This document shows, in pieces, positions 25,673 through 56,689 of a DNA stretch of 64,000 nucleotides. Each line of letters starts with the position of its first letter. Within the stretch, counting starts at the first letter, position 1. The DNA is from Gentiana macrophylla (lineage: Eukaryota > Streptophyta > Magnoliopsida > Gentianales > Gentianaceae), in assembly GCA_026214975.1 (NCBI GenBank), contig CM047815.1:76971299-77035298 (forward strand). The letters run 5' to 3'. The notes beneath the pieces were generated by a model, which worked only from the letters and a program-made list of their open reading frames with translations, was not told the DNA's origin and did no database searches. The position numbers and the translations under genes are program-made.

Positions 25673-25681
25673 TGTTTTTTC
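25673..25681. repeat. Left 9-bp target-site duplication of the MULE
   Basis: TGTTTTTTC, identical to 43,417-43,425 on the other side of the element. Nine base pairs is the characteristic duplication length of Mutator-like insertions. Confidence 0.85.
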
Positions 25682-25947
25682 GGGATTTTGGAAAATCAGG
25701 CATTGTCTCCCCCCACCCCTCCCCTTGGAATTAAAGTGGCAAAAATGACCACATTCGTAGTTAGGTTTTACGACAATACTATTGTCGTAAATACACCCAT
25801 AACGACATTATTATTGTCGTAAAACCACCAAATAAGTGAACTGCTGATTAATGGCATAACGAGGTACGTTTAACGCCATTATTATCAACGTTAAATATTT
25901 AACGACAATAATATTGGCGTTAAAAATACCTCGTTGGCGCCAATATT
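25682..25947. repeat. MULE left terminal inverted repeat
   Basis: Matches the inverted sequence of 43,138-43,416 almost throughout, including the C-rich stretch, AATTAAAGTGGCAAAA, and the palindromes ACGACAATACTATTGTCGT and ACGACATTATTATTGTCGT. Similarity fades after the motif TTGGCGTTAAAAATAC. Confidence 0.85.
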
Positions 25948-26317
25948 TAGTTGTTTGGCAATTCCCTCTATTTCAAAGTTATTTATTTGTGAATTGCTTA
26001 CCACAAAACAACTCTTAGCTCAACCAAAAACCAAAAAAAAAAAATTCCAAAAGACTGTGTGTAATCTTCAAGTTTGGTATCATCAAACAAAAATTTGCTC
26101 CATCAAGGAAGTTCGGCATAGGTAAGTATTAATTGTTTTTGCAATAACTTCATATAATGTAATTTAATGAAAAAATGATGAAGTCGATGAAAATTGCTTA
26201 ATAGATTGTTTGTTATTGGCGTTTAGTATTAAGATATAGGGAAATTGTGTTGAATGATGAAGTTTGTGTAAATTGGTGTGTAAATTGTGATGAAACGAGA
26301 ATGATGAAGACGATGAA

Positions 26318-26500
26318 CCAGGTATCGGCGTTAAACAAGTTTTACGCCATTATTATTGGCGTTAAACAAGTTTTTACGCAATTAATATTAGCGTTAAAAA
26401 TGTTATTACGCCATTATTATTGCCGCTAAATATTACATTACGCCATTATTATTATCGTAAAATTATTTTTACGCCAATAATAATGACGTAAAAACAGGTT
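26318..26500. repeat. Subterminal array of AACGCCAATAATATTGGCGTT-like palindromes (left)
   Basis: About seven half-palindromes of the form ACGCCATTATTATTGGCGTT spaced 25-40 bp apart. The same motif type occurs inverted in the right arm at 42,680-42,830 and within the terminal repeats. Clustered subterminal palindromes are typical transposase-binding sites; binding here is inference. Confidence 0.6.
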
Positions 26501-27115
26501 ATATTTATTTCATTTTATATTTTATTTTTGGTTGAGAAAAGCAACTTTTTTGTGATCATATAATGTTTACTATGATTTGATAATTACTTTCACATAAATA
26601 GTATGTAATATATTAAGTATAATATATACTAATTATGTGAAAATGATTATGAAAGTATACTATGAATTTTCACATGATTTCATAATTTTCACATTATCAT
26701 ACGTATAATATATTATATACTCATTATGTGAAAATTAGGTTTTTCCCTTTAGAGTCTTTAGTATAATATTTAATATATTAATTGCGTTTAGACTTTTTAT
26801 CATTTCAGATCTTTAGTATATGTATATAATTGCCTAAGTATGATATTTCTAATTTAATGGCTTAGTATATGCATATGCCTAATATTACTGACAATGATAT
26901 AACTAAACTTGAGATGATCTGCATATGCATTATTATGTGCAAATATGATATTTAATAGCCTTGTATCATATTTAATTCTCGGATTGCCTTTAGCCATTTT
27001 ATCATTTAATATCTTTAGTATATATGAATATAATTGACTTAGTTTGATTTTTGTAATTTAATGGCTTAATATATGCATATGCTAATAAATCTTGACAATG
27101 TAACCTAACCAAATC
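26501..27115. other. AT-rich spacer in the left MULE arm
   Basis: Contains diverged repeats of 'ttagtatatgcatatg' and 'tttcacataattagt'-type motifs. The counterpart spacer in the right arm (42,425-42,675) is shorter and only weakly similar. No gene is seen. Confidence 0.45.
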
Positions 27116-27883
27116 TGATGAAGCGACGAAATGATGAATAACACATAACGCCAAATAAGAGCGAACAACGACAATAACATCGGCGACTTCCGTTACGCTT
27201 TATGGTGAAAGCCTCCACCAGCGAGGTTCTTGTAGAGTGCAGGTTGTTTTCGATTCCACTCCTTCCTTCTCAGCGATTATGGCCTTCCTCATGCCTCATG
27301 AAGAAATGAGGTCTATAGGACGACTCGTAGAGGATTTGTAGGTTCTCTTGTTCATCTCTCCACTCAACGACTTGGTAAAGCCTCGGCGGAAGTGAGGCAT
27401 CCAGTAGATTAGGTATTTCGATCTTTGTTTAGCCGAATCGTCCGGCATCTCCATCACTCCTCCGTGGTTTACTAACAAACAACGCCTTCTAAATGACACA
27501 TAACTTAAACATCTAACAACCGCCATACCTTAAACATCTAACGACCGAAATTCAACAAAATCACACTAAGATCCAAACAAACAAAACATCACCGTAACTT
27601 GGATAATGAATGACTACACTACTTTCCAAACTTATGTATATGTATATCTTTGTCACGAGCGGATATGCACGTGTATGCGTGCAAGCAGACACTTTCATAC
27701 ACGAATATCATAAAGGTTCGGATATCGTGTGTGTATGTTTGTGTATGGTATGTATAAATATATACAGTGACAAACGGATATTGTTTGGATATCGTTCTCG
27801 TGTCGAGTTCATATTCATACTGTCCAAAGTTGTAACATTATATATATATATATGTACATTGGATATAAATGCTCAAGTGTGAG

Positions 27884-27960
<77 letters not shown>

Positions 27961-28118
27961 TTATTTATTTATTTATATGTACTTGTTACATATATATACA
28001 TGGAAATATGCATATAAGTTCACAGTAAATAATTTACACACATATTTTCATATACGGTGTAGCCGTGTATGATATTCACAGTAAATAATTTACACACATA
28101 TTTTTGTTGATTACGACT
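27116..28118. repeat. Inner inverted repeat, left copy
   Basis: Matches the inverted sequence of 41,365-42,425 at high identity, for example CGACGAAATGATGAATAACA, GAGGTTCTTGTAG, GGATTTGTAGGTTCTC and TACACACATATTTTCATA. Length differences come mainly from the TA microsatellite (27,886-27,955). Together with the terminal repeat it gives each side a ~2-2.4-kb inverted arm with diverged islands. Confidence 0.8.
27296..27526 (-). CDS. Unknown 76-aa frame in the left arm, reading outward
   Basis: Encodes a short basic protein containing LSGEMNKRTYKSSTS. A frame-shifted homologue lies in the opposite arm (42,044-42,292, +) with the same LSGEMNKRTYKSSTS segment and a comparable KYLIYGMPH. Both read towards the ends of the element. 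I recognise no domain. It may be a captured exon duplicated with the arm, or conserved only because the arms are recent duplicates. Indels between copies change frame several times, which weakens a coding interpretation. Confidence 0.25.
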   Translation of the reverse strand: MAVVRCLSYVSFRRRCLLVNHGGVMEMPDDSAKQRSKYLIYWMPHFRRGFTKSLSGEMNKRTYKSSTSRPIDLISS

Positions 28119-28206
28119 TCTAAGCGTAAAATTGGAATCGTCTCTATTTAATTTACAGTGTAGCCGTGTATGATATTCACATAAATAATTTACACACATA
28201 TTCACA

Positions 28207-28265
<59 letters not shown>

Positions 28266-28460
28266 CATATATATATATATATATATATATAGATTATATA
28301 CGTGTACAATTATATTTATATATACAATTATATATAGATATACACACACACACTTATATAAAAAGCAATATACACACATATGCTTACACGGACCTATTTC
28401 AAAGTTTAAAATTACTTGTGAATCTTGTGAGTGGTTAATGATTTTTCTCGGTGACAACAT
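28119..28460. repeat. TA/CA microsatellites and short repeats
   Basis: A long TA tract (about 28,208-28,261) and 'gatattcaca-taaataatttacacacatatt' repeats derived from the inner arm. Open frames over the TA tract are low-complexity products. Confidence 0.7.
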
Positions 28461-31196
28461 GTTGGGTATTTCATTTACTTTGAATGGGAAATGGAATCAC
28501 AAATCCGGTAAAGAATGGTCTTATTCGAATGGAACCGCTTATATCACTTGCGTGAGCAGGAATATTTCCTTTGTGAAATAGCGGAGAAAATTTACAAGAG
28601 AGCCGGCATTGATCCTCTTGGGTATAAGTTGAACATTAAAGCCTTGTACCACGACCAGTGGAACACACCAAACGCCTCATGTTGAGATTTTAGGCGATGA
28701 CTCATGAAACGGTTACATTTGTGAAAAATTAGCAAATATTCCCGTGAAACTATGTGTTGATGGCAAAAAAGTGGTTAGTTATGATCCTCCGAGAGATATG
28801 AATGAGACCATGATTGATTTAAATGAGTGCGATTGATTTAAATGAAGAAAACTACGGTGAAGGTTTTCCCATTAATGATGACAATCTTGTTCGTTGTGCT
28901 CAACCAGAGAGACATTCTCGGCAAGGGTTCTGATATTTATCCTCTTGATAACGGAAGAGAACGATCGGATCATATGCTAGATTACGGGGTTACGATACAC
29001 CTTACTCGTCGATCATATACTCGGTGAGTACCAAATACATCATTCATTTGAACTCTTTGTTTGGTAGCTCCAGTCAACCTTATAACAACGCTACAACATC
29101 TCCGACTATACGATTTTGAATACAAGTAAATCGATTCGTGGTGGACCTCAAATTACGAATACAAGTCATAACGCTCCACGTACAGCGAATTATCTTGTTC
29201 CGACTATTCGATTCAACCCGATTTTGGCCTAGGCGGTTCGTTTTAAACCTTAGTGGTGCACACCATGTTGAGTCCCGACACACATATAGCGTGCGATCGT
29301 GGCGGAGGGAGTGATTTAGGTGATTTTGGAGGCGATCTTCCACCAATTGAAATACCGTTGTGCCTAGCACGGGGGCGATTACCATTGAAGGCGAAGATGG
29401 TTTGTATGTTGGAAGGTTGTTCAAAAATAAAGATGAGATCGTGACATATTACGATATCACGCAATGAAGAATAGTATCGATTCAAGTGAAAAGGTCGATA
29501 AGGATAAAGCGTATTTGAAATGTAAGCGATCGAATAAATGTGATTGGAAGTTGAATGGTAGGAAAGGTGAGGGTGACGATGTCCACTATTTCAAGATAAG
29601 CGAGTATGAGGCAAAACATACATGTGGTGAAAGCATAACTAATCGGCATGCTCAAACCACACCTTCTTACATAGGCCGTTTGGTAAGGAACGACATTATT
29701 GAACTTAAGGGAAAATTTAAAGCAAAGAATGTCCAAGTTGCGGTGAATAAAGAATTAAAACTTATCCACTTGGTTATGACCAAGCTTATAGATGTATACA
29801 AGAGTCTTTACGTCGATTGGTGGAACTCCAGAACAGTCTTATACTAAGATGGATGGCTACTTTCACTTGCTTAAAGAAGCAAATGCCGATACATTGACGG
29901 ACATAGAAAGGGATAGCATGGGTAGGTTCAAGTATTGTTTTATGTCATTGGGACCTAGTATTGTTGGATTCAAGTTTTGTCGTCCTATACTATGCGTAGA
30001 TGGTACTCATTTGAAGAATAAGTATGGAGGGACTTTATTAGTTGCTGTCGGAGTAGATGCGGGTGATCACTTGTTTCCATTGGCCATTGGCGTAGCCGAC
30101 GGTGAGAGTAATGATTAGTGGGCGTATTTCTTTAACCACTTGAAGAAGGCAATCGAAGAAGCGTGAGGATCTGGGAGATTTGTCATTTGTCTCGGATAGA
30201 AATCGAGGCAATCAAGTCTTCCGCTTGAAAGAGTGTTTCGGATGCTTACCATGGATATTGCTACCACCACCTTGACATGAGCGTCAATGACATTTACGGT
30301 AAGAAAAATATTGTCCAATAACATTGAAAAAGCGACTTACACTTGTTCGAGCGGGAATTCAAAATATTGTTTGAAGAGATTAAGCATAAAGATGCGGAGG
30401 TTCATACTTATTTGGAGAATGTCGGAGTGAAATCTTGGGCAAGGGCACATTTTCTGGAGCGCGATCTGCTATCATGACAAACAACTATCTTTGAGAGCTT
30501 CAACATTTGTACTTCTCGAGGCACGGAACATGAATATAACGAATATGCTTGAATTCGTTAGGAAGGCGTTACAACGTTGGTATCATAAGTGGAAGAGTTA
30601 GCATTCGGTTGTAGTAGTGTATTAGCACGAGGAAGTTGAAGCGAAGGTGATGGATACGGTTAATCGTAGAATAAACTTCACGCTCTATCCCATCGGCGCC
30701 GTTGAGTTTGGTGTCGAACCTTGAAAGCGACATCGAGTTAATCTCTACGACCGGAAGTGCTATTGTAGAGAGTGGCAAGCACATAGGCTCCCATGTGTAC
30801 ATGCAGCTGCGGTATCATGAGCGTCATTTGAACATTTATGACGGATGTCATCCTTATTTCAAAGCGGTGTGCTTCAAACATATTTATGAAGGCCGTGTGT
30901 TTCCTGTTCCTGTTGAAGAGCATTGGAAACTCCCATATAATGTTCGAACATACGTTATTATTCCACCTATTGAGGGATAATGTGTGGTCGACCGGATACG
31001 GCAGGGCGAAAATGAGGCCGTCGTAGAGCGAAGAGGATACGTTCAAGCGGAGAGCGTAAAGTTGCCAGGATTAGGAGGATACTTTCGGTAGGCGGCGTAT
31101 CAAAAAATGTTCAACATCGGTCTACTGGACATAGAAAAGACAAATGTCCTACACCACTTCATTTGGCTGGCCCACTCAATGTATAGTATAATTTAG
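28460..31196 (+). pseudogene. MULE (MuDR-type) transposase, decayed
   Basis: Cut-and-paste transposase that would act on the element ends. Pieces in order: an N-terminal stretch (about 28,500-28,680, EYFLCEIAEKIYKRAG); a MuDR DNA-binding region (about 29,380-29,640) with GRLFKNKDEIV, AYLKCKRSNKCDWKL and KHTC; the catalytic core from 29,790, with CRPILCVDGTHLKNKYGGTL carrying the first acidic residue, PLAIGVADGESND, then SDRN at about 30,192 and WARAHF at about 30,440; and a SWIM zinc finger at 30,757-30,812 (CYCREWQ then PCVH). The gene needs several frame changes and passes in-frame stops (for example TAG at 30,116), so no full-length product is possible. The A/T-rich end fits an unprocessed decayed gene. 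Family assignment is firm from DGTHLK-YGG plus the SWIM pattern. Confidence 0.85.
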
Positions 31197-31667
31197 ATTG
31201 TTAATTTGATGTATGAAAAGACTGCTGAGTTTTGCTTTGTCTTTTCGATAACAATGTTCTGTAATCGTTATGTTTTGCTTAACTTTTTGAATGCTTGCAT
31301 GGCTATTTAGAATATACTATATCCGCATGGTGCTGTAGCTTTATATATGCCAACCCCCCTCCCCACTCCCCCCAATACTCCCATTCTAGACCCCAATTAA
31401 TTCACGTAAAGAAATTGATTCCTCTCCCCAAAAACGAAAAGTTGTAAAAAAAACTTCTCACCTAACTAACTATGTAACATCTTTAAAATGACAATGCCAT
31501 GTTAGTAGAAAAAATACACAGCGATGGAGACATTTTCCTTCAAATTTAGCTAGCACAAGAACACAAAACAGTGCAATTATCAAGGGTGGTCATGTGATCG
31601 TCGAAGATCATCCATTACAATTGCGAGTAGAAAGAAAGAAAAAACAAGAAATAATTTAACAAAATGC
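31197..31667. other. Spacer between the transposase and cargo genes
   Basis: Includes a C-rich stretch 'caacccccctccccactcccc' near 31,350. Probable 3' regions of the converging transposase and the minus-strand cargo gene. No gene is seen. Confidence 0.4.
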
Positions 31668-32490
31668 TTAAACAAACCAAGGGTGGTCACTATAGATGAC
31701 AGGGGAGGTTTCTGAAGAAATGTCATCCGTGTCATACTCTGAAATGCGTTAAAATGTCTTGCGATAGCCCTGATAAGAAAATGAAAATAGATATAACCAT
31801 CACCACTACTCTCTCAGCGATATGTCACAAATCCTACTAATGATGTAACGTCCAACGTCAACCGTAATGGAAAATCGTACACCAAAATGTACAAGTCAAA
31901 TGGCGGTTCAAGAGTGTGTATAGTACCATAGAGGCTATTGGCGAACCATTTGATCATAACACGCTCCCGTTCGGTGGCGGTTTGGCGAGAGCAATTATAC
32001 GTTGCAATTCACGAGCGTTGAAGCCCGTTGAAGAAGTCACTGGATGCTTCAACTCCACTTACACCATAGTAGTTATTGATCCGATCAACCTCCAAGGCAA
32101 AATCTACTCCACGTATTTTGTGCACCCGGATGCTATGGCGGAGCACTCTTGACTACATTTGACGACAAGCGCATAGAATTCACGAACAATTGATCTATTC
32201 ATAGTGGATGTCGATCACGGGACTATTTGCGAGGCCCTCCAGCGAAAGTCTGCGTATGAGTCTCTTCATCTTGGTAGGTAGACTCTTCAATTCAATTCTC
32301 CTCTCTCCGATAATAGCTCTATCGTTGAAGAGGTACTCTCAATTATGGCGCTCTTAAATGCATTGCAACCTCAACCTCGATTATCAGAGCTCGTACCTCG
32401 TTGTGCGAAGGTCGTAAATCACCGAGGAATCAATAACACCCCTCTAGGGCCATTAACAAACACGGGTTGATGAGGATTCCATGGAGGATC
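31668..32490 (-). pseudogene. Cargo gene copy C, 'putative plant transposon protein'-like, decayed
   Basis: Recognised by comparison with the two better copies at 34,781-35,613 and 36,662-37,512. Read on the minus strand: NPHQPVFVNGP near 32,470, SIVREFYALV near 32,185, RGVDFALEVDRINNYYGV near 32,090, and a C-terminus ending SDHPWFV at 31,668. The central part before the tail is largely missing or scrambled, and frame changes and stops separate the pieces. The plus-strand 78-codon frame at 31,916-32,152 is its shadow. Function is unknown; the RG-x-x-FA-x-x-INxYYG block resembles the plant transposon-protein domain that often accompanies retro- and DNA elements. Confidence 0.6.
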
Positions 32491-32654
32491 CTCATACTGC
32501 GGGAATTTGGTTCATGCCATTCCCGATGAGGAAATAGGTTCGAACATTGTGTATATAATTGAAGTAAAGTAGAAGGTTATGCGAGAGGTAGTTTAATAGG
32601 TCATGGTATATATAGAGTTGACGGTCAATATTATAATGACACATGGATACAGCG
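32491..32654. other. Spacer next to array 1
   Basis: Short upstream region of cargo copy C (minus strand) running into the ~180-bp array. No further structure seen. Confidence 0.4.
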
Positions 32655-33310
32655 ACCACACATGGCAGGGAATCTCGTTTGACGACAATACTATCGTCGT
32701 CAGAGTCCATTTGACGGCAATATTATCGTCGTAAAATCATGCACGACTGGTGACAAGACCTGACACTGTGCCCATGTGTCCTGCCTACGGTCATAAATCA
32801 TCACCACTTGAAGTGTGGGACCCACCGACAGCGACCACACGTGGCAGGGAATCTCGTTTGACGATAATACTTTCGTCGTCAGAGTCCATTTGAAGACAAT
32901 ACTATCGTCGTCAGAGTCCATTTGACGGCAATATTATCGTCGTAAAATCATGCACGACTGCTGACAAGACCTGGCACTGTGCCCATGTGTCCTGCCTACG
33001 GTCATAAATCACCACCACTTCAAGTGTGGGACCCACCGACACCGACCACACATGGCAGGGAATCTCGTTTGGCGATAATACTATAAATCGTCGAGTCCGT
33101 TGGCGACAATACTATCGTCGTCTGCGAGTCAATTTGGCGGCAATATTATCGTCGTAAAATCATGCCTGGCTAGCGACAAGACGACACTTTGTGCCCGTGT
33201 GTCACGCTACGGTCATAAATCACCACCACTTCAAGTGTGGGACCCACCGACATTGACCACACATGGCAGGGAATCTCGTTTGACGACAATACTATCGTCG
33301 TTAAGTCCCA
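32655..33310 (+). repeat. ~180-bp promoter-like tandem array 1
   Basis: Units start CGACCACACATGGCAGGGAA at 32,655, 32,832, 33,043 and about 33,254 (spacing 177, 211, 211). Each contains TTGACGACAATACTATCGTC, a second palindrome GACGGCAATATTATCGTCGT, and CACCACTTCAAGTGTGGGAC. The array ends in a TATA-like CACTATATATACTACGAC (about 33,332), after which the B3 gene begins. The same array lies upstream of cargo copy B. It is a plausible regulatory block shared by cargo genes; promoter function is inference. Confidence 0.75.
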
Positions 33311-33330
33311 GCAGATCCCTACTATTCTCC

Positions 33331-33417
33331 ACTATATATACTACGACACATCCCAAATAAGCATACAAGAACGAACAATTAAAAGAAATTCGGCCATTTT
33401 ACTTTACAGTGAAGCAA
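33331..33417 (+). promoter_or_regulatory. TATA box and leader of the B3 gene
   Basis: TATATATA at about 33,334 followed by ACTACGACACATCCCAAATA and AGAACGAACAA. The equivalent sequence before cargo copy B at 36,520-36,570 is nearly identical, so the two genes share a core promoter. Confidence 0.55.
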
Positions 33418-34252
33418 ATGGATTTTCCAAGTTTCTTTAAAGTTCTTGATGGCGGTTTCATAACAAGTTTGGTATGTCATTATTAATTAACTTACATTTA
33501 TATCACTTATATTATGATTGAACCAACATGATATGTTTCTTTTTCATAAGCGCTACCTCCAGCATACTTTAATAGGTAGAAGGACACGATGGGGAACATA
33601 GATATGACCGTTCTCAGAAGCCGATTAGGGACATGGAATGTTAGGATTGGAGCCGCAGACAATGGAATTCTTCGTTTCTTTGGGGAAGGTTGGGAGGAGT
33701 ATGTGGCCGCTCATGACTTGAATGAGGGAGTTTATAGTGTTTGAACACGAGGGATTTCATTTTAGACACTATTGTTGTCTTTGGATCACACTTCTTGTGA
33801 GAAGACTTTTTATGTTTCCGATGGTGAAGAAGATGAGGCGGTGCAAGTCACCAAAATCCCCATTTTAGGATAATGACGGCAAACTAGGCATTTTCACATG
33901 GTTATGTGGTGAGATTTGATCATTTTAGTTGTTTTCTTGTGTATCTTTCATCCTCATTGCAATTTTGTATGATATTTAAAATTGTTTGTGATTTGTAGAA
34001 TATTCCAATGCCATTTGCTAGAACAAAGCGACATGTTGCGAAACAAGGCAGTCGAGCTGCGAATGCGGCGAGGGAATCATGGCGTGCTAAATTGTAGCTT
34101 TTATTTCAAACTATCAACAAGTTCGTTTAAGCGGGTTGAATGATTTCATTACCAACAATGACCTAAATGTTGGAGATGAATGCACATTTGAAGTCGTTGA
34201 TGAACCTATAGAAAATCACGTCGTGTTTAATGTGGTGATTACTAGACATTGA
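33418..34252 (+). pseudogene. Captured B3-domain (REM-like) gene with two B3 domains, decayed
   Basis: B3 domains bind DNA in plant transcription factors. Exon 1 (33,418-33,471) encodes MDFPSFFKVLDGGFITSL, the usual start of a REM-type B3 domain; a good donor GTATGT follows. After an acceptor at 33,550 come LPPAYF, then TVLRSRLGTWNVRIGA, GEGWEEYVAAHDLNEGVYSV and SCEKTFYVSDGEEDEA (about 33,790-33,870). A second B3 domain starts IPMPFARTKRHV (about 34,007) and ends LNVGDECTFEVVDE ... VVFNVVITRH, with TGA at 34,250-34,252. Several one-base shifts and an in-frame TAG at 33,574 break it. Two B3 domains and the linker order match the REM family. Its shared promoter array suggests it was once expressed as element cargo. 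Confidence 0.75.
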
Positions 34253-34780
34253 AGTGCAATTATTAAAAACGTCGTCCTATCCTATTTAAGCCAATGTATC
34301 ATTACTCTCTTTCTTTTTAAGTTTGTAAGCCTTGTAATCCCTTGCCAATGTATCATTACTCTTTATTTTTATGTATGTAATCCAATGTAGCATTTACACA
34401 ACAAGTTTTCATTCTACAAAGGTAGTCTAAAGTTGTAAACATAAAAGTAAATAAGACATCATGAAACTAATCAGACAATGGCATTCAACAAAAAGATTTG
34501 TCAAGACAAGAACTCATACAACAAAAATCACCAACTTTAACAAAGTCTTTTGATTTAACACAATAGAACTATATAGCAGTAGTACAGTAGAAGCCCAGAG
34601 ATGAAATCATAAAGCAAAATCCATTATATTTAATTACGAGGAGAAAGAAAAATAATGTGATCATGGAGTCTAGAGACTAAAAAGACAAACTGAAATCATA
34701 AAGCAACATATGCAACTTCAACAAAGTCTACAACTTTCTTCATTGTTAAAATAAAATACATTGCACGTGAAAAATAAACC
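34253..34780. other. Shared 3' tail and spacer
   Basis: 34,285-34,390 contains CCAATGTATCATTACTCT twice, followed by CTTTCTTTTTA-like sequence. The same tail occurs after cargo copy B at 37,530-37,610. The rest is AT-rich spacer up to the stop codon of copy A. No gene is seen. Confidence 0.5.
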
Positions 34781-35613
34781 TTAAAAGTCATCTTGATTAA
34801 AAGTTTCGTAGGTGATAACGTCATCATGACTGTATGTCACATCATCTTCAGTATATTCCGGCACCCCGGCGGACCTCACGCACATAGATGTGATGAGATA
34901 CGGGAAAAATATATATCCATCGCCTGCGTTGACCTTTGCTATCTGTCGAATCCTGGAGAGAATATACTCTCCGACGTCAATGTATGATGTGATAGATGCA
35001 TACGCAAGTGCGTACAAATCAAATGTCGGTGCGGTGTAGTTCACCGTGCCATACATATTGGTGGCAAGGAACAAAATCAAGAAAGGAAGGAATGGACCGC
35101 ACCAGGACCAGGGTGAAGGGCGGGTACACCTCACACGTTCCCACAGATGCGTCTGCCCAAACAAAACAGCCATGTCACGCTGTAGTAATTCAGGAACATC
35201 CGGAAATAGAAAGAAATCCAAACCCTGTGGATATTCTTGAATGGCATACATCTCGTTGATCATGTATTATCCAAAATGGCGGGTACACCTCGCCTTTGTG
35301 ACACACCGTTCATTGAGCCTACCGTAGCTACACAAGCGTAGAATTCACGCCTGATAGACCGATTCACGTGATGAAAGCTTAATGGGGTTTGGGGGACACC
35401 ATGCCATCCATTATCTCGGAACAAGTTTTTAATCAAACCAGGTAGACTTTCCATATTCAATCGTCTCTCTGGAACAACATCTCTTGACATCCAGTTAGCC
35501 ACGTACTCACGCCTCTCCTCTTTGGTTGTGAAACGGTTTATGAGAGACTCCTCGTCCAACGATAGATCCATTTTGTCATTCGGGATAAACACAGGAGCAT
35601 GCGGGTTAGGCAT
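34781..35613 (-). pseudogene. Cargo gene copy A, 'putative plant transposon protein'-like, one frame break
   Basis: Two overlapping frames (35,260-35,613 then 34,781-35,263) make up about 277 residues with one shift near 35,262. The N-terminus is MPNPHAPVFIPNDKM; then SRDVVPERRLNMESLPGLI, VNRSIRREFYACV, and in the second frame GDGYIFFPYLIT followed by an acidic tail ending FNQDDF. Copies B and C share these blocks. No catalytic motif is visible, and the function of the family is unknown. Best preserved of the three. The promoter side faces array 2, which also precedes copy B on the other strand. Confidence 0.65.
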
Positions 35614-35703
35614 TGAATATAATAGAGGGGAAATGAGAGGGATGAGTCATTTAATAAATGATCGGTTAATATATAGACTTTTACTTATGGGAAGTCATAA
35701 ATG

Positions 35704-36462
35704 ACCCACCGACACCGACCATACATGGCAGGGAATCTCGCTTGACGACTATACTATCGTCGTCACAGTCCATTTGACGGCAATATTATCGTCGTAAAAT
35801 CATGCACGACTGCTGACAGGACCTGATACCGTGCCCATGTGTCCTGCCTACGGTCATAAATCACCACCACTTCAAGTGTGGGACCCACCGACACCGACCA
35901 CACATGGTTTGGCGACAATACTAATCTCGTTTGGCGACAATACTATATTATAATCGTCGAGTCCATTTGAGCGACAATATTATCGTCGTAAAATCATGCA
36001 CGACCGGTGACAAGACGACAACGTGTGCCCGTGTGTCACGCTTCACGGTCATAAATCACCACCACTTGAAGTGTGGGACTACCGACACCGACCACACATG
36101 GCAGGGAATCTCGTTTGACGACAATACTATCGTCGTCAGAGTCCATTTGACGGCAATATTATCGTCGTAAAATCATGCACGGCTGGTGACAAGACGACAC
36201 TTGTGCCCGTGTGTCACGCCTACGGTCATAAATCACCACCACTTGAAGTGTAGGACCCACGAGAGACCGACCACACATGGCGGGGAATCTCGTTTGGCGA
36301 CAATACTATAAATCGTGCGAGTCTATTTGACGGCAATATTATCGTCGTAAAATCATGCACGATCGGTGACAAGACGACACTTTGTAACCATGTGTCACGC
36401 TTTCGGTCATAAGTCACCACCACTTCAAGTGTGGGACCCACCGGCAGACGACCACACATGAC
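35704..36462 (+). repeat. ~180-bp promoter-like tandem array 2
   Basis: Units start at 35,716, 35,895, 36,089, 36,268 and 36,449 (spacing 179, 194, 179, 181) with CGACCACACATGG. Sequence and orientation match array 1. It lies between the divergent cargo copies A (minus) and B (plus) and ends in CTCCTATATATACTACGACA (36,522-36,541), so it could serve as a two-way promoter. Confidence 0.75.
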
Positions 36463-36661
36463 ACGGAATAACTTCGGTTTGATTAAGATCCACATATACC
36501 CCATATTCAACTCCGCCTATTCTCCTATATATACTACGACACAACCCAAATAATCATGCAGAACGAACAATGGGATGACTCGGAATCTTCGTACAAATAC
36601 ATTTGATTACTAGCATCCCACCTCATGTCTAACTTTCGGATTATTTATTCCCTCTTTGAGT

Positions 36662-37512
36662 AAACCCGCATGCCCCATGTTTGATAACGAGGGTGGGAAG
36701 ATCGTCTATGGCGAGGATACACTCTTAAGTAGGTTCCACGATGATGGGGATAGACAATATTTGAGACAAAGCTGGAATGGTAGAGTGTAGTTGCGAGAGA
36801 GGAGGTTATCGTGGGATAGTCTGCCTACACTCTTGAGAGCAGATTACTCGAGGTGGGTGGTGCGGTTTAGCTAACACCCACGATGCAAGGGTGAGTATGA
36901 ATCGGTCTATCGTTCTTGAGTACTATGCAATTGTTCGAGTGGGATACTTTGGGGAGGACCGCAAGCACACCGCGAAGCCTCCGGCGTTACCGTTAGTTTG
37001 GATGTGGGGGATCAACCGCTACTATGGCATTCCAGAAGTCCCAGACGGTGAAGAATTTTTCAGGCATCATCCTATGATTGCGCTGGACAATGGGATGGAT
37101 TTGATGTATGAACTCGCTAATGCATTTGGTGGGACTCATCTTTGGGGTCCTATTGAAAGGACAATTGATGGTTTGGTTGAATATATTCCAGCCAAGATTA
37201 AATGGCGAGTGGAGTGCGTGTCATGCTTATGTTTCTTGCGAATCGCGTCCATGGTACCATACATCACGTTCAACCAAACTTGGATATGTACATCCTTGCA
37301 TCACGCGATCTTATATCATCGAGTGAATGTGAGGCGATACATCGTGGATAGGGTTAACGAGGATAGCGAGGGGAGACATGGTGATGGTTATATCTTTTTC
37401 CCATTCCTTATAACGGCAATGGCGAAAGCTTTGGGGTACGGATCTTGACACGGATGAAATTATTTGGCAAACACCACCTTTCGTATTTAATGATCACCCT
37501 TGGTTTATTTAA
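36662..37512 (+). pseudogene. Cargo gene copy B, 'putative plant transposon protein'-like
   Basis: A 185-codon open frame (36,891-37,448) carries MNRSIVLEYYAIVRVGYFG, WMWGINRYYGIPEVPDGEEF, GTHLWGPIERTIDGL and GDGYIFFPFLIT. Upstream, in other frames, are the family's FDNEGGKIVYGEDTLLSRF (about 36,680) and RERRLSWDSLPTLL (about 36,797). Downstream, a one-base shift leads to the acidic tail ending NDHPWFI with TAA at 37,510-37,512, matching the tail of copy C. At least three frame changes are needed. No ATG equivalent to that of copy A remains. Preceded by array 2 and its TATA-like sequence. Confidence 0.7.
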
Positions 37513-37700
37513 GCAGTGTTCTTATTCTTAAGCGTGTATAATTACTCTTTCTTTTTGCAAGCCCCGTATGTAAGCCAATGTATCATTACTCTCTTTCTTT
37601 TTATGTTTGATTTTACTACTTATCATTTCACCGATTAGATCTAAAAAACAAACTAAAAAATATAGTATAAATATTACAACACCATAAATTCAGATAATAA
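37513..37700. other. Shared 3' tail after cargo copy B
   Basis: Contains CCAATGTATCATTACTCT and CTCTTTCTTTTTATG, as after the B3 gene. Probable transcript end region of copy B, facing the end of the minus-strand Ulp1 gene. Confidence 0.5.
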
Positions 37701-37703
37701 ATA

Positions 37704-40700
37704 TCAAACTCCTATATGCCGTGTAAACAGATCTACGGCCATTTTGTTCCGGAACCTATGTACGGTTAGATCATTCAGCTCATCTATCCTCGCCTCATTT
37801 ATGATTAAAAGCTCCATAATCTTCAGCGTGAAAATCCCACATAGCTTCCTGCATATTAAAGCCATAAATTTTGAAATTGAAATGTTCAAATTAACAATTC
37901 TAAATAAGGCCACTCAAAAAAAATAAAAAAAAGTACAATTCTAAATAAGGTTTCATACGTACCAATTTTTCGTCTGTGGACATTCTTTATCGGTGAGCAG
38001 TACTCTACGAAATGATGGTTGATCTGGATCGAGCATCCATTGTGATTTTTTGCAATCTACTGATCTCGATAACAGTACCCTCATATATCGAGATCATTTC
38101 TCTATGGTTGGATCTATTAGGTCCGAATTATCTTGTTTGTATCGGCTGTCGTATAAGATGATCGTCCAGTCACTGATTGACATGACCACAAGCACCCAAT
38201 GCAGATCGTTAATCGTCCGGATAGCATAAGCGATTGTTTTACGGGTCCATGCGAAAGCTTCTAACGATAGGCGGTAGGGCGATCCACGGCTAAATTACCA
38301 TCCCATTTACCTAATTCGGACACAAGAATCCTTGCAAAAGAGAATAGCACAATCTCGCATGCTTCGATAACATTGGGGTAAACCTCCATACGAAGCGATT
38401 AGTAGACCCACATATGCATCAATGTCTTTGCAAATGGAATGTTTATTACTCGAGGCGACATATATATTACGAAATTGAAAAACAACTTTTAATGAGTTTA
38501 CCTGCGCAAGAAATATAACTATCTGAGCCTATAAGGTTGCTGAAGAAGTCACGGTCCGCAGGGTAATCGAAAGTGTCTCCGTCAGATCGAATCCCATTTA
38601 ATAATTGCCGGGTATCACCTGCTTTTGATGCCAGCCACCTTCTCAGTTCATTAGATTGCTCGTCGTTACCCCTAAGGAAGGGTGTGTATCTACTTAAATC
38701 CGGCTGATTTTCTTTCGTAATCCAGACGGTATTCTTCTTCTTACGGATTTCTGTTGGCTTTGTATTCGGACGAAGGGTCATTTTTAAGTTAACAGCAAGC
38801 TTACGTCGATCATCTGCATCGACCATCAGATGACTGCACGTGGATACTTGATTGCTGTTATCCGGCACAACGACATTGTATAGCCGATTGCTACTAGATG
38901 GAAGATTTGTTGGGACTTCAGGAAGGAATACGCCCTACACTTGAAGAGTGGCTTCTTCTTCTATGACTAGATAATCGGGGCTCAAATTCTTATGTGAACT
39001 ATCGTCGGAGGCAGCTTCTCGATCAAAATGAACAGGCCCGGGTGTGGTGAATCCAAAAGCCTCGGCCATAGGTGAAGTGGATTGTGTCAAGTTTGTCGCT
39101 TCATGATCAGGCCTTTGACGGGATGTCAATGTTTGATTAGGCATCTGCGGTATTGTACACCAGTGTGGAAGTAACTTGTGGTTTGGTTCGATCCGCCATA
39201 AACCCCGAATTGCTTTGTCTAGCGCCGATCCATGTGTTATTCCCGCCCGGTGTCGAAAGGCCCGTCCCCATCACTGTTTGGATCCTATAATTGAAACGAC
39301 CGAATAAGTTTTTTGTTATGAAAAAATATTATACTTGTTAAAATGTATTTAAATAGGTCAATAAAATCATACACAGCTCTACTGTACGCTGCAATATCAA
39401 ATTGATTCAGAATGACGCTGTGATGATTTAACACCTCATCCTGCGCGTCGAGCCTAGCTTTAATGGTATCGAATTCGGCATTCATTCCCTCTTGGATTTT
39501 CTTTGTTGCCGCTTCGATCATCTTACGAACCGCTTCAATTATCGGGTCTACTCGAATAATGTCCCCTCCATCAACAACATTAGTATGGTCTTTGCCGGTG
39601 TTGGATATGGACATCATCATGATCTTCTCCTTCACCGTCAATTCCTTCATCCCCATTATTGTCATCATCACCACAGCAGCCGCATCCCCGGGATGTCGAT
39701 TCATGTCTAATAGTGGAAGGTGCATCGTTATGGTCTAAACGAGGAACATTGGATTGAGTAGTGCTCGCGGTCGTGGCAATTCTAGAAGATCCAACCGCTT
39801 TCGCTTTCCAAGAGCGCGGAGCGGCGCGGCTTGGTCGAACCCACATGTAGAAATTTGTTGTCGGGCGGTTGTGGAAACGTCGTCGTCGGGGACATGAAAT
39901 TTGCTCTTCAGGTAGACCGAGGCCACGTAGAAATTCAACTTCAGTGTTGTCGGTTGTCATACCATCCAACATACCGACCTGCACACAAAAATATCAAGAC
40001 ATTTAAAAAAATCATTAATCATGGTATTGACATAATCTTAAATGAATTTTATTAAATGGAATGTCATTAATATTACCTCAGGCATAACTTTCGTTTCCAT
40101 GGTGGCTCCACGCGGTGTACTATCCATGCATTTCCATATCAACATCCGGGGGATGGATTCACTGTCAATACGAACACAAAATGGTGGATCGCTTGTTTGC
40201 AAACGTGGGAAAAGTTCATAAGCCCAGTATACTAATGCAAGTGCCCACCCGTCAACCGGTGGCTTGTGCTGGTTTCGATCCTGCTTTTGTACACTGAAGC
40301 GCTTAACAATCCGCATGAGGTTTGCTATCTTTTCATAAGTAATTCGCCATAAGTACTCCCCCCATGGAAACCCATTTACAATATTCAAATCTTCAACGAC
40401 GGAGAATATTTCTTTCGGGATTCCAAGACTGTCATTCCACCCTAATAGATATCCATAAATAAAATACACCAAGGCTAATCGGTATACAATCTCATCGGTA
40501 TGAGCACCGACTCGCACAGGATGCTCAAATGCCCTCTCCAAAATTCTTATGGTAATAGCTTGTTTTTTTTATATTTTTCCAAGTAACATCCGGGGCCAAA
40601 GCACATAAAATCACCCGTACCCAAAGTCGGATCAAGATGGCCAAACCGTAAGCCAGATATCATGGAGAACTCTCTCCTGCCAAACACGCATGTTGTCCCC

Positions 40701-40999
40701 GGGTTACCAAACCTAAAATGCAGCTCACCAGGCCTGTCGGGGTATATCATGTTGAATCCAATATATCTGAAAATCACCCCACCGAACTTCCACTTATCAT
40801 GTAGTTCATTTGCCTCTATAAATCGCCTAAAAATGGACTTTCTAAACCTGTCTTCAAAATCTACTTCACCAACGCTCAACTTTTTTAAAATTGTTAAAAC
40901 ACTTGTCAACTTAGCGGATTCCCCTTTAAAATTCCAAACTCCCTTGAAATGACTCGATGGATCAATTATATACGCTCCCGGGGTGCCTACGAGCTGCAT
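37704..40999 (-). pseudogene. DUF1985 plus Ulp1/SENP-like cysteine protease gene, decayed
   Basis: Ulp1 proteases cleave SUMO; in plants a ULP-like branch with an N-terminal DUF1985 is carried by some MULEs. DUF1985 is at 40,547-40,999 and continues, after a frame shift, at 40,077-40,541 (LRFGHLDPTLGTGDFMCFG, VYRLALVYFIYGYLLG, DGWALALVYWAYELFPRL). A GT-AG intron (39,979-40,076) leads to a linker with an acidic Asp/Gly patch and a coiled-coil-like segment (KKIQEGMNAEFDTIKARLDA, about 39,450). The protease part shows LHWVLVVMSISDWTIILYDS (about 38,200-38,140; His of the catalytic set) and CGIFTLKIMELL ... FRNKMAVDLFTRHI at 37,704-37,880, where Cys-Gly is kept but the usual Asp before Cys is replaced. 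Stops and shifts throughout. Family call firm; activity unlikely. Confidence 0.75.
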
Positions 41000-41218
41000 A
41001 TCACAGTATAACGACCATGCATAAGTATTACATCATATGTAACACACACACACATCTATATATATAGATGTGTGTGTGTGTGTGTGCATATATAGATGTG
41101 TGTGTGTGCGTATAGATGTGTGTGTGCATATATATATATATATAGATGTGTGTGTGCATATATATATAGATGTGTGTGTGTGCATATGTATTATATGTGT
41201 GTGTGCATATAAATATAT
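41000..41218. repeat. GT/TA microsatellite block
   Basis: Alternating runs of TG and TA with a recurrent 'gcatatatagatgtgtgtgtg' motif, between the Ulp1 gene start and the palindrome. Not coding. Confidence 0.8.
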
Positions 41219-41384
41219 TTGTTGATTACGACTTATTATAAATATACGTGAAAGTTGTAATGTATATACATGTACGTATACATATATGTCATGTGTATAT
41301 ATATATACACATGACATATGTATACGATACATATATATATTTACAACTTTCACGTATATTTATAATGAGTCGTAATCAACAAAA
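41219..41384. repeat. Near-perfect 166-bp palindrome
   Basis: The left arm runs from TTGATTACGAC (about 41,222) to the centre at about 41,301; the right arm returns through GTATATTTATAATGAGTCG to about 41,384. The core GTCATGTGTATA/TATACACATGAC is a perfect dyad. Mismatches are few. It sits at the inner edge of the right MULE arm and could form a cruciform or RNA hairpin. Confidence 0.75.
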
Positions 41385-41539
41385 ATATGTGTGTAAATTA
41401 TTTACTGTGAATATCATACACGGCTACACCGTATATGAAAATATGTGTGTAAATTATTTACTGTGAACTTATATGCATATTTCCATGTATATATATGTAA
41501 CATATATATATATATATATACATACATACATATATATAT

Positions 41540-41602
<63 letters not shown>

Positions 41603-42425
41603 CTTATATATATATATATATTTAACAAAGATACCACGACACGAACACGATATCAATGTACATATATATATAATGTTACAACTTTGGACAAGTATGAATA
41701 TGAACTCGACACGAGAACGATATCAATGTACATATATACATGACAAAAACAATATCTGTTTTGTCATCAGTGTATATTTATACATACCATACACAAACAT
41801 ACACACGATATCCGAACCTTTATGATATTAGTGTATGAAAGTGTCTGTTTGCACGCATACACGTGCATATCCGTTCGTGACGATATACATATACATAAGT
41901 TTGGAAAGTAGTGTAGTCATTCATTATCAAGTTCTGGCGATGTTTTGTTTGTTTGGATCTTAGTGTGATTTTGTTGAATTTCGGGTTGTTAGATGTTTAA
42001 GATGTACGGCGGTTGTTAGATGTTTAAGTTATGTGTCATTTAGTTGCGTTGTTTGTTAGTAAACCACGGGAGGAGTGATGGAGATGCCAGACGATTCGGT
42101 AAACAAAGATTGAAATACCTAATCTACGGGATGCCTCACACTTCCGGTGAGGCTTTACCAAGCTCGCTAAGTGGAGAGATGAACAAGAGAACCTACAAAT
42201 CCTCTACGAGTGTCTATAGGACCTCATTTCTTGCGGGCATGAGGAAGGTCATAAGCGGTGAGAAGGAAGGAGTGGAATCAAAAACAACCTAGACCTACAA
42301 GAACCTCGCTTTCGGGTGGAGGCTTTCACCGTAAGGCAGAACGGAAGTCATCGATGTTATTGTCGTTGTTCGTTCTTATTTGCGTTATGTGTTATTCATC
42401 ATTTCGTCGCCGTTGTATTTGGTTA
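41365..42425. repeat. Inner inverted repeat, right copy
   Basis: Inverted partner of 27,116-28,118. Contains a TA microsatellite (about 41,540-41,600) and a duplicated 'cgagaacgatatcaatgtacat' segment not seen in the left copy. Confidence 0.8.
42044..42292 (+). CDS. Unknown 82-aa frame in the right arm, reading outward
   Basis: Shares LSGEMNKRTYKSSTS and YLIYGMPH-like segments with the frame at 27,296-27,526 in the opposite arm. It overlaps a second open frame (42,258-42,539) that has no recognised similarity. See the left copy for the argument for and against coding. Confidence 0.25.
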   Translation: MRCLLVNHGRSDGDARRFGKQRLKYLIYGMPHTSGEALPSSLSGEMNKRTYKSSTSVYRTSFLAGMRKVISGEKEGVESKTT

Positions 42426-42679
42426 GGTTACATTTTCAGTACTATTAGGCATATGAATATACTAAGGCAATTATACTCTATAGGGCTATTAAATATTAGA
42501 TTACATTATACTATACTAAGGCAATTATATTACATATAGGGCTATTAAATATTCATTCAAAAATATAGTAGGTCAAAATATGTTCACACCATTACAACAA
42601 GGCTATTAAATTATTATATACATTCAAACTATCATTTTTGAATTATATATAATAAACACTAAATATTTTTAATAATAAA

Positions 42680-42830
42680 CGTAACAACAATATTATTGGC
42701 GTTAAACATGTGTTTTACGACAATATTATTATCGTTAACAACATACACTTAACGACAATAGTATTGTCGTTAAACACATGTTTAACGCCAATAACTTCAA
42801 TTTTGGCGTAAAATGAACCACATATTGGCG
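42680..42830. repeat. Subterminal palindrome array (right)
   Basis: Contains AACGACAATAGTATTGTCGT (a perfect palindromic site at about 42,752) and several AACGCCAATA / TATTGGCGTT halves. Mirrors the left array at 26,318-26,500. Confidence 0.6.
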
Positions 42831-43137
42831 TAAAATCACCATTCAAACCAACAACATATCATCGTGTTATTTGGGAAATTCAAAAACAACCCCAACCCTA
42901 ACCAATCTACCCTCTTTTACAAATTGCACAACAAAAATCGAATCAAATAAAAAAATGACAGATAGAAATTAACATTAACCTCGGGGCTATCTCCCGTTGT
43001 GGAATTTGATCCATTTGTTCCAAAGGAGCCTCGAATCCATTGCAGAGACGGATCGTTTTTACGAGAATTTTGGAGGATTTTTTGCAAATTGAGATAATTT
43101 GGGGAGATGAAGAGGAGCGACAATAATAACATTGAAC
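42831..43137. other. Unmatched segment between right array and terminal repeat
   Basis: Unlike the corresponding left segment (25,948-26,317). It has no recognisable coding content; the minus-strand 108-codon frame (42,917-43,243) overlaps the terminal repeat and resembles nothing known. The two unmatched segments could be leaders of outward- or inward-facing transcripts. Confidence 0.3.
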
Positions 43138-43416
43138 GATGATTATTGGCATAACAAAGTATTTTTAACGCCAATATTATTGTCATTAAATATTTAACGT
43201 TGATAATAATGGCGTTAAACATACTTCGTTCGCCAATAATCATCGATTCACTTATTGGTGGTTTTACGACAATAATAATGTCGTTATGGGTGTGTTTACT
43301 GACAATAGTATTGTCGTAAAACCTAACTACTGAATGTAGTCATTTTGCCACTTTAATTCCAAGGGGAGGAGGGGGAGGGGAGGGTGGGAGGACAAAGCCT
43401 GATTTTCCAAAATCCC
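43138..43416. repeat. MULE right terminal inverted repeat
   Basis: Inverted partner of 25,682-25,947. The G-rich stretch (43,365-43,392) is longer than the C-rich partner on the left, and a one-base change splits one palindrome (TTTACTGACAATAGTATTGT). Confidence 0.85.
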
Positions 43417-43425
43417 TGTTTTTTC
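43417..43425. repeat. Right 9-bp target-site duplication of the MULE
   Basis: TGTTTTTTC, identical to 25,673-25,681. Confidence 0.85.
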
Positions 43426-51542: not shown

Positions 51543-53790
51543 ATGTCGATGTCTTCTACCGGTTCTTCCTCCACTCCCGCCCCGGTGTGTCTCTTTTTCT
51601 TTGCTACGGCGTTTGTGATGACGGTTAAAATAGTCTATCCTACGGCATCAACATTCTATCCATTATGAGCTAAAATTAATTGTTTCGACCTATAAATGTG
51701 AACCATTTGAGTTGAATAGCATATGTCGGGTTCGTGAGTCAAGAAATCACACTTACCGCTTATTTTCCTGCTTTGATATTATTTCGTGCATTATTTGATG
51801 ATTTTCAGGAAACAAAATATTGGGCTGAGCATGATGGACGAATCTGGAGTGGACTGAACGAAAAGAATGGGCCTAGGGTATTCCAGAACCTTCCAAGTTA
51901 AGTCGGCTGAAGAAAAAGGACAAAAATACCCCCGGTAACCCGGGAGGCGGTGCCGACTTACCGAGGGTCCAGAACCTTCAGAAATGCATTTTCTTGGACG
52001 AGGGGTAAACTAGGTGTTTCTAAGTCGGTTTAGATAGCTATAAATAAGAGGCTTACCTCGAGACACAAGTGTGATTTTCAAGACAAATATTATGCAATAA
52101 AAGTTCTCTATTCTTTATTTTATTTATTTTATGAGTTCTGGTCGGAGGGACGACGGAGTCGCCGCCTAGGGAGAGATCCGAGAGAGATCTACGCTCGTCT
52201 TCGAGGGTATGATTTTCCATCTTTTCCAAGATGTAGATCTATCGTTGTTCTATTTGACTAGTATGTTTTAATTGCTTATTTAGTTTAATTATGTAGTAGT
52301 TAGTTTATTTTACCCCATGTGTTATAGATCTGGTTCGTTGGTGAAGAAATCATGAAATAGTAGTTGCGTTCTTCAGAACTGCGACGGTCTATATCGCTAG
52401 ATCTGAATACCTAGTAAATTACTAATTAATGATAATCGGCGCCAGCTACGTTGATCGATAAAGTTAATTTACATGTTTTTAGCCTGATCAACTATTTGCA
52501 TGTCATCGTAAACTAGCATGAAATACGAATAGTGAAGTGCTATGTTTGGACATTATCTATAATGGACCTTAGGAACGTCTTTGATCAATGTCGATAAATT
52601 TGCTCAGGCGGGTTTGCGGTATGAGTTAGCGCTCAATATCGATAGCTCTAGTTCTTTATGCGTATGGGCTATTACGGACCAATTAAGGAGGGTAGCTTAT
52701 GCGTATAGATTGTCTACTACAATTATCAAGTAGATAGGGTTAAGAGTTGTACCCGTAGCTGAACAATGAATAAATTCACCAATGGGGAGGACTGTTGCAT
52801 GTGGGGGGGAATAACTAATTACTCATAATTGAACTAATACATTAGAAACTCTTGATTGCTCCGTTGAACTTCCATAATCTTGCTAGTTGATTGTTACCAA
52901 TTTTACTACTGTCTATATTATAGTTAGTCATAGACCGTTATCGTGACAAGCTCAATCTCGATAATTAGACGTTCTTACGAGTCTCTATGGGATCGACCTT
53001 GATTTTCCAATACTCTACTATGATAGACCTAGTTTTATTGTTAGTAAGTGCCTTGCACGCGATCAGTCTGTTACTGCCCGTGCAAATTTTTTTGGGTATT
53101 TCAACAGACAAAAGGCCCTAGCGGTGAGGGGCTTGAGCATGTATTAAGTTGAAGGGAGTGGTTCTATATTTCGCGTCATTTTCTCAGGGTGGCGTGACTT
53201 TACGGCGGCGCCTAGGGGGAGGTATAATCTCACCTTAGTGCGTGAGTTCTATTCAGTTTTATCGGAGGCTGACTCCGATGAGGGCACCACCTCGGTTTTC
53301 CTTCGAGGCGTTCCTGTTGGCTTCACTCCGGTGGTCATAAACATGTTTCTTCGCCTCCCCAACGTCGATCCGGCCATGCATTATAAGGCGGCTTGGGATC
53401 TGGATAACGAGGAGCCTTACCTGGGTCCTAGAACGTATGCACACCAACGCTTATTCCCAGGTGAAGGAGATCCTATTTTGCAAGGGGTTGCTTCCGGTTT
53501 GCATCGGTCACATCGGGAATGGAAACGGTTCATCAATACTCGTGCTATCCCGACTACAGATTTTGAGGTGCTCACTGATGAAGAAGCCATTTTGATTCAT
53601 GCTATCTTTACCCCTCAGGTGGGTGTCGACTGATGGGTCATAATTGATCACGAGGCCGTCAATTTTGCAAGGATAATGGATCCTACTCGGCCTATGCCTT
53701 TAGCTTGGTTAATCTTCAATCTTTGTACCGAGTTGTTGTGGATCCCGGTCAAGACCGAGGATCTGCACTTTAGTGCATATTAGTTTTTAC
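51543..53790 (+). pseudogene. Antisense-ORF remnant of a Tat-like retroelement, copy 2 (N-terminal half)
   Basis: Exon 1 from ATG 51,543 encodes MSMSSTGSSSTPAP, then a donor-like GGTGTGTC. Coding resumes at about 53,107 after 'caacag' with GPSGEGLEHVL, then EWFYISRHFLRVA, and after a frame shift FTAAPRGRYNLTLVREFYSV. The 131-codon frame 53,238-53,633 carries VREFYSVLSEADSDEG, VFLRGVPVGFTPVVINMFL and LPNVDP, matching the plant transposon-protein pattern (FY..L, RGV.V.FTP..IN.FL.LP.V). An in-frame TGA at 53,631 is followed by the continuing WVIIDHEAVNFARIMDPTRP to a TAG at about 53,786. The rest of the protein is absent, so the copy is internally deleted as well as interrupted. Confidence 0.55.
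51617..53106 (+). mobile_element. LTR-like insertion in antisense-ORF copy 2
   Basis: About 1.5 kb of unrelated sequence splits the gene, within what looks like its first intron. It begins TGATGACGGTTAAAAT and ends GGGTATTTCAACA. It has a TATA-like CTATAAATA (about 52,038) followed 60 bp later by AATAAA (about 52,098), the U3-R arrangement of a plus-oriented LTR. The end region 'ctctatgggatcgacc ... caaatttttttggg' resembles the LTR/leader junction of Athila/Tat elements. No clear target duplication, so the borders are approximate. Confidence 0.4.
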
Positions 53791-54762: not shown

Positions 54763-55122
54763 TCAAAGCTCGATCAGTGCTGGCCTTCCCATAATGATGT
54801 TGTATGCTGGGGGAGCCTTTACCGCCACATAGTTTATCATTAGCATTTTGCACCTCGGCTCCCTTCCAAATGTTGTTGCTAACTTGATCATTCCTAGAGG
54901 ATGAACTGGAGGCCCTGCAAAACCAAAAAGAGGTGCCGACACAAGAGTGAGTTTGGAATCCTTTAAGTTCTTCGACTGGAAGGAGGAGTAGTACATGACA
55001 TTAACAGCACTTCCGGTGTCCACGCATATGCGCTTCACAAGATTTTTGTGGACCACAGCTTCAATGACTAAGCCCTCGTTGTTAGTTAGCATGGGAAGAG
55101 GGTCATTTGGATTGTAGATCAC
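54763..55122 (-). pseudogene. Retroelement aspartic protease fragment (Ty3/gypsy)
   Basis: Retropepsin that would process the Gag-Pol precursor. The frame contains the active-site block VKRICVDTGSAVNVMYY (Asp-Thr-Gly) and GFAGPPVHPLGMIKLATTFG, then YNIIMGRPALIEL, the usual start of the domain's C-terminal ILGR-like motif. It is in a different frame from gag upstream. Truncated after GRPALIEL; no reverse transcriptase follows. Confidence 0.8.
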
Positions 55123-56642: not shown

Positions 56643-56689
56643 TCCTCAACAAACAATTACCCGTAGAAGGCCCTCCTTCTAGCGCTAAT

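Follow-up and report, generated by a model that had tools for sequence, protein, structure and literature searches.

What are the short palindromes for that are spread through a 17.7-kb Mutator-like element (MULE) of Gentiana macrophylla? The element (17,735 bp, positions 25682-43416) lies in a 64,000-nt stretch of the forward strand, here called the window (GCA_026214975.1, contig CM047815.1, 76,971,299-77,035,298), and its genes are ordered from left to right as transposase (+), P1 (-), B3 (+), P2 (-), P3 (+), and DUF1985-Ulp1 (-). The palindrome arrays, and other palindromes at related loci, are absent from a preliminary description of this DNA and are the stronger feature of the element. 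We propose, with a probability of roughly one in two, that the DUF1985-Ulp1 protein encoded by the element binds the palindromes in the terminal arms and in two internal arrays, and that promoters would thereby be kept unsilenced. Copies were compared across the 1.79-Gb genome and are labeled by contig (C1, C2, and so on), the window copy lying on C11.

The 19-bp palindrome ACGACAATAnTATTGTCGT was scanned as the consensus ACG(A/C/G)CAATA.n.TATTG(T/G/C)CGT with at most three mismatches. We found 30 units in the element, confined to the arms and to two arrays between divergent genes. The left arm holds nine (eight at 25770-26489, with five consecutive units 31-32 bp apart, and one more at 27168) and the right arm six (42684-43317). 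Eight units lie in array 1 (32649-33308), a tandem repeat of 211-bp period between P1 and B3, and seven in array 2 (35703-36487), a tandem repeat of 179-bp period between P2 and P3. The rest of the window has no unit at this threshold and one at four mismatches, and 30 shuffles of the element gave a mean of 0.17. None of the 30 units falls inside a gene, though genes, with spans taken approximately, cover 9,828 of the 17,735 bp. The arrays start about 10-110 bp from the starts of P1, B3, and P2, and array 2 also lies upstream of P3; the closest arm palindromes are 1.2-1.9 kb upstream of the transposase gene and 1.7 kb upstream of DUF1985-Ulp1. This layout and its turnover, shown directly by the comparisons below, are the established part of the mechanism that we propose. 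Neighboring units in 14 copies are most commonly spaced by 32 bp (67 pairs), and the commonest longer distance is 147 bp (14 pairs). We also observed that 147 bp between groups and 32 bp inside them make up a 179-bp unit, in 32649-33308 and 35703-36487 and in copies C6 and C10; the DNA of a nucleosome core is likewise 147 bp long.

We read ten long copies, counting that of the window, together with six short ones. Nine separate insertions were counted, the window copy and a segmental duplicate of it being taken as one. The full-palindrome scan took in nine of the ten long copies, which have 9-30 units each; C7 was judged by half-sites, of which it has 67. Seven copies had 17.6-37.6 half-sites per 10 kb, compared with 1.7 in the window flanks. 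Units were also present at 19 of 20 unpaired ends sampled from 65, and among nine derivatives of about 0.4 kb eight have 4-9 units and the ninth has one (1, 6, 6, 7, 7; 4, 5, 6, 9). One of these derivatives, L050, has a poor second end; a further short derivative, C6:107010050-107010487, stands outside the count.

This distribution bears on two other candidate readers. In Spm, TnpA binds subterminal repeats, reading short repeats near the element ends. The palindromes could likewise be transposase binding sites for excision and self-regulation, the DUF1985-Ulp1 protein having another role, and their density near both ends and their retention in eight of the nine short derivatives fit such a function. 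Yet two arrays sit 7 and 10 kb into the element, beside other genes, and P2-like loci keep arrays at the same place with other palindromes, so that we regard transposase sites as unlikely. The B3 protein as reader is more improbable still. B3 is a DNA-binding domain and its gene adjoins array 1, but the gene is present in two of the nine insertions, whereas palindromes are present in all nine (eight by scan, C7 by half-sites).

We then considered loci elsewhere in the genome that match P2 (at least 130) or DUF1985 (at least 148). Ten of each were read, in a choice that favored few stops and a spread of identities. Upstream of the P2-like loci we found ACGACAATAnTATTGTCGT at two, CCGTCCAAA.TTTGGACGG (that is, CCGTCCAA) at five, CGTGCTAA at two, and none at one, and no locus of the ten had full palindromes of two kinds. 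Types were called by full palindromes or by repeated half-sites, and CGTGCTAA by half-sites, the motif having first been recognized in L062 and then seen five times in L065. The DNA between the palindromes matches the element's arrays at both ACGACAATAnTATTGTCGT loci and at four of the five CCGTCCAA loci, L060 being the exception. Upstream of DUF1985 loci 58-65% identical to the element's gene, ACGACAATAnTATTGTCGT was present at two of four (10 and 17 half-sites); upstream of those 39-42% identical, CTACGTTTAAACGTAG was present at four of six, and ACGACAATAnTATTGTCGT never occurred as an array (n = 6). A generic test, which looked for 8-mers that contain CG and recur in inverted orientation, was passed by 7 of 10 P2 loci versus 4 of 41 controls (p = 0.0003) and by 7 of 10 DUF1985 loci versus 6 of 32 controls (p = 0.005). 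L077 passed it without any named palindrome, and L062 taken alone failed it.

The extension of L060, called X6 (C6:8.90-8.92 Mb), has a P2 with 74% identity, a DUF1985 gene with 33-53% identity, the CCGTCCAA motif, and a transposase remnant (44% identity over 43 residues); no long inverted arms were present within the 20 kb read. Among the matches listed, 42 of the 130 for P2 have a DUF1985 match within 15 kb (about 0.5 expected by chance), nine of them near the element's type of DUF1985, 33 near the X6 type, and none near both. Also among the matches listed, DUF1985 lies within 20 kb of element ends in 33 of 92 cases for the element's type and in 0 of 150 for the X6 type. This proximity count used the best 92 of 148 DUF1985 matches, all at least 47% identical; the other 56 comprise 45 at 37-43% and 11 pieces at 47-88% with lower scores. 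Of the 97 end places it used 81, without the six short pairs, two further places on C1, and the right-hand ends of C3 and C13. P2 identity does not track the palindrome, being 85% at a CCGTCCAA locus and 82% at a ACGACAATAnTATTGTCGT locus. DUF1985 type does so in the four P2 loci for which it is known, one with ACGACAATAnTATTGTCGT and the element's type and three with CCGTCCAA and the X6 type, one of these three being X6 itself. Because the palindrome follows DUF1985 type and not P2 identity, these small numbers point to DUF1985 rather than P2 as the putative reader.

A DUF1985 reader has a precedent. VANC proteins, which have a DUF1985 domain, bind to short motifs within noncoding tandem repeats and are reported to demethylate their own kin (Hosaka 2017, PMC5735166); action on kin has been reported as well for VANC genes with an Ulp1 domain (Sasaki 2022, via PMC13317346). 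As far as these systems are described in the sources available, the element shares with VANDAL and VANC its Mutator-like nature, 9-bp duplications, an encoded DUF1985 protein (here with an Ulp1 C48 domain, as in the KIU type), short motifs in noncoding tandem repeats, and a motif and repeats that differ between related lineages. It differs in having another motif, an Ulp1 domain, PF20167 genes, and sometimes B3, and in giving no match to DUF287 at E <= 1 in the six frames of 28.4-41.0 kb with stops read as X. The element thus resembles the VANC system in layout, apparently as a variant with long arms, inverted motif pairs, and extra genes.

Since this layout matches that of VANC, an anti-silencing action is suggested. 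The palindrome-bearing regions upstream of the element's genes would be promoters, the DUF1985-Ulp1 protein would bind the 19-bp palindrome there, and this binding would counteract methylation of the DNA, in the way described for VANC in the VANDAL elements of Arabidopsis. If each lineage's DUF1985 protein reads its own palindrome, its action would be limited to its own kin. We put forward more tentatively, as somewhat less probable than binding within the element itself, that a large group of transposons linked to DUF1985 and PF20167 in this genome run a self-recognition code: each lineage would place a palindrome of its own at the starts of its genes and all through its ends, its DUF1985 protein would read that palindrome only, and miniature derivatives would ride along with hardly anything but palindromes left.

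Three groups of observations weigh against binding by DUF1985-Ulp1. The first concerns the related loci. The numbers of DUF1985 and P2 matches are lower bounds; stray ACGACAATAnTATTGTCGT half-sites occur at loci with another motif (three at L060, one each at L059 and L061); and neither palindrome was present, in the 2.6 kb read, at two of the four and two of the six DUF1985 loci. Moreover, the controls that passed the generic test (6/32 and 4/41) did so through unrelated tandem repeats, and homologous loci are not independent of each other. The second group concerns the VANC comparison. VANC21 sites are reported in one orientation (PMC5735166), whereas the motifs here are inverted pairs, that is, palindromes, and neither the VANC21 nor the VANC6 motif is enriched in the element (1 and 0 matches). 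The ends of VANDAL elements are described as degenerate; those of the element are neither degenerate nor missing and form inverted arms of 2.0-2.4 kb. With degenerate ends and the two known motifs tested and not found, we do not file the element as a VANDAL. Degenerate terminal repeats accompany VANC-related genes in VANDAL elements, in a report that leaves the causal link open (PMC10398659, EMBO Rep 2023), and some Brassicaceae VANDAL members are described with terminal inverted repeats (TIRs; PMC6446971, Mob DNA 2019).

The third group concerns how the palindromes have changed. Compared between copies, they do not evolve more slowly than their neighbors (lower in four of eight copies, equal in two, higher in two), and palindrome positions 4 and 16 showed no co-variation when tested. 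Since the segmental duplication, CpGs have decayed at 1 of 80 sites in palindromes versus 18 of 133 around them (p = 0.002), and at 15 of 375 sites in genes, counting only sites with a CpG in at least one of eight reference copies. With sequence context matched, the decay was 1/75 versus 7/84 (p = 0.067), and for the arrays alone the difference was not significant (p = 0.20). Because significance is lost with context matching, the lower CpG decay is a hint only, a possible trace of protection.

Another alternative has no element-encoded reader: the palindromes would be tandem repeats that expanded neutrally, or would give rise to small RNAs of the host. The absence of slower evolution agrees with this, as does the divergence of the internal array palindromes at non-CpG sites (9.4% versus 3.7% in their surroundings), and other parts of the window contain tandem repeats as well. 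Against it, the palindromes are confined to the arms and intergenic arrays, they are retained in miniature derivatives, and related loci have distinct palindromes at the same position. We rate neutral repeats as a little less likely than transposase binding sites and prefer recognition by the DUF1985-Ulp1 protein. At 4965-6485 and 53907-54423 the window has tandem arrays whose units contain CG and bear no relation to the element.

Other known systems resemble parts of the element. In Kaonashi/KIU MULEs, which are described as non-TIR elements, an Ulp1 C48 gene runs opposite to the transposase gene (PMC6117577, PMC13317346, PMC2528002). The element shares the opposed Ulp1 C48 gene and differs in its long arms; the parts of these descriptions available make no mention of a PF20167 triplet, B3, or palindrome arrays, all of which it has. 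PF20167 (Transposase_32) has been linked to ORF1 of Athila (PMC11728184). P1 and P2 belong to PF20167 and P3 is a BLASTP relative, a likeness to the extra Athila frame; here, by contrast, three diverged copies stand in a DNA transposon and, for 42 of the 130 listed P2 matches, close to DUF1985 genes. In Spm, TnpA brings about activation and demethylation of its own element (PMC10398659), and the action proposed here would be alike in that an element protein counters methylation of its own element. Spm belongs to another superfamily, and the element here has interior arrays as well. A search that reached few subscription papers found no publication describing a MULE with both DUF1985 and palindrome arrays.

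The argument presupposes that the block is one transposon, as the preliminary description had proposed. The alternative, a chance assembly of separate insertions, has next to no probability: nothing was found in its favor, and it is refuted by C7, an independent insertion on another contig with both ends, all six genes in the same order, and its own 10-bp duplication. Exact 9-bp duplications of their own flank C1, C2, C6, C9, and C13, besides the window copy; none was found when looked for at C3 and C10. C7 and these five long copies establish a real Mutator-like family, and the copies with common ends and different duplications that the preliminary description had hoped for were thus recovered. 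Genome-wide, the 20-bp end has 97 exact matches, and a reversed-pattern control has none. The copy 107 kb upstream on C11 has the same duplication and flanks as the window copy, and about 33 kb of the window (15573-49162, the whole element with flanks) recurs there at 94.8-97.4% identity, so that it is a segmental duplicate and not a second insertion. An empty site, also hoped for, was not found: the joined flanks match at length only at the window locus and at its segmental duplicate, and the insertion splits both matches. Two long copies are themselves interrupted, C7:30072250-30110235 by a nested 21-kb insertion and C1:92498131-92514852, which includes 5,000 N, by an insertion with retroelement-like frames as judged by eye.

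By its boundaries, too, the element is a MULE: 9-11-bp target duplications occur in several independent copies, the copies share ends and interior, and the transposase domain and its SWIM finger (PF10551 and PF04434) score above cut-off. The identical 9-bp flanks noted earlier stand directly outside both ends as TGTTTTTTC, at 25673-25681, abutting the element, and at 43417-43425; the 9-mer by itself is frequent (5 matches versus 1.9 expected). The matching ends also held, the 20-bp end being exact at 25682-25701 (+) and 43397-43416 (-), with 0 expected by chance. Long inverted arms had been claimed correctly, with a length of 270 bp that falls far short of the 2.0-2.4 kb found. In a blastn self-comparison, the left arm spans 25682-28118 (+) and the right arm 41368-43416 (-), the outer 264 bp and an inner 1.06 kb of the left pairing with the right. 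Identity is 88% for the outer pair (25682-25945/43144-43416) and 86.5% across 1,120 columns for the inner pair (27062-28118/41368-42469); about 1.1 kb of the left arm between these parts has diverged.

The window copy is decayed, and none of its genes looks intact. The transposase remains seen earlier are a broken gene at about 28400-31200 (+) with PF10551 at about 29987-30169 and a SWIM finger at about 30731-30817; a longer open frame in C2 matches PF10551 at E 1.4e-18. The ULP1-DUF1985 gene was likewise borne out (37704-41032, -), with DUF1985 at 40038-41032 and the C48 protease domain at about 38243-37704. Splicing of a 114-bp intron predicted at 37962-37849 brings the catalytic Cys motif into the Ulp1 domain, and the spliced model matches C48 at E 3.9e-13 (50.2 bits versus a cut-off of 20.7). 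DUF1985 scores 22.2 bits in the window copy and 33.8 bits in C2 (E 3.9e-8), both below the cut-off of 35.1, and 52.2 bits in X6. The B3 gene (33418-34252, +) is decayed and has two weak domains (E 1.1e-5 and 4.9e-6), scored from pieces read across frames and both under the Pfam cut-off.

The three-member family announced as unknown does exist and is PF20167, its third member placed by BLASTP alone. P1 (about 31570-32640, -) is decayed, with 31574-32634 matching C2 6374-7437; against a cut-off of 45 bits, its frame scores 42.1 bits in C2 (E 1.2e-10) and 49.7 bits in C10. P2 (34781-35646, -) is broken and scores 31.2 bits, below the same cut-off; in C10 it is a complete open frame of 304 aa (E 1.5e-15, 58 bits). 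Its predicted structure had a mean predicted local distance difference test (pLDDT) value of 40.8, and no fold search was based on it. P3 is an open frame at 36837-37448 (+), its gene start possibly at about 36540, and has no Pfam match of its own; its identity is 33% with P2 and 32% with P1 (BLASTP E 3e-21 and 2e-20). Protein searches of a large collection, in which plants seem thinly represented, returned 1, 8, and 1 matches, the eight proteins including seven from Cannabis and Humulus that are 31-53% identical.

Gene coverage across the nine insertions indicates that the cargo is modular, with the DUF1985 gene (7/9) as its most constant part. The transposase is present in six, at 75-100% of its length, P1 in five, P2 and P3 in three, and at least one PF20167 member in five. 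B3, present in only two, is sporadic. The combination had been called unusual and possibly new: the whole set is indeed shared with C7, but the PF20167 family, with at least 130 genome matches to one member, is not private cargo, and the literature available reports ULP1 and VANC/DUF1985 genes in MULEs, as the preliminary description had noted for ULP-like genes.

Elsewhere in the window, a further PF20167 frame (53148-53633, +, E 9.9e-16) lies near gag/protease-like frames (54763-56645, -) that look retrotransposon-like by eye, two of which had no Pfam match. About 12 kb left of the element, a PF01490 amino-acid transporter frame (12884-13363, +, E 5.3e-31) is probably a host gene. Scans of the window yielded neither a tRNA nor an Rfam family at gathering score.

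An element that combines long terminal repeats with a VANC-like layout would allow a direct test of the idea connecting TIR degeneration with VANC. With CCGTCCAAA.TTTGGACGG, CGTGCTAA, and CTACGTTTAAACGTAG at related loci of one genome, it would also make it possible to test whether protein and motif co-evolve, and would offer several separate protein-motif pairs for targeted demethylation.

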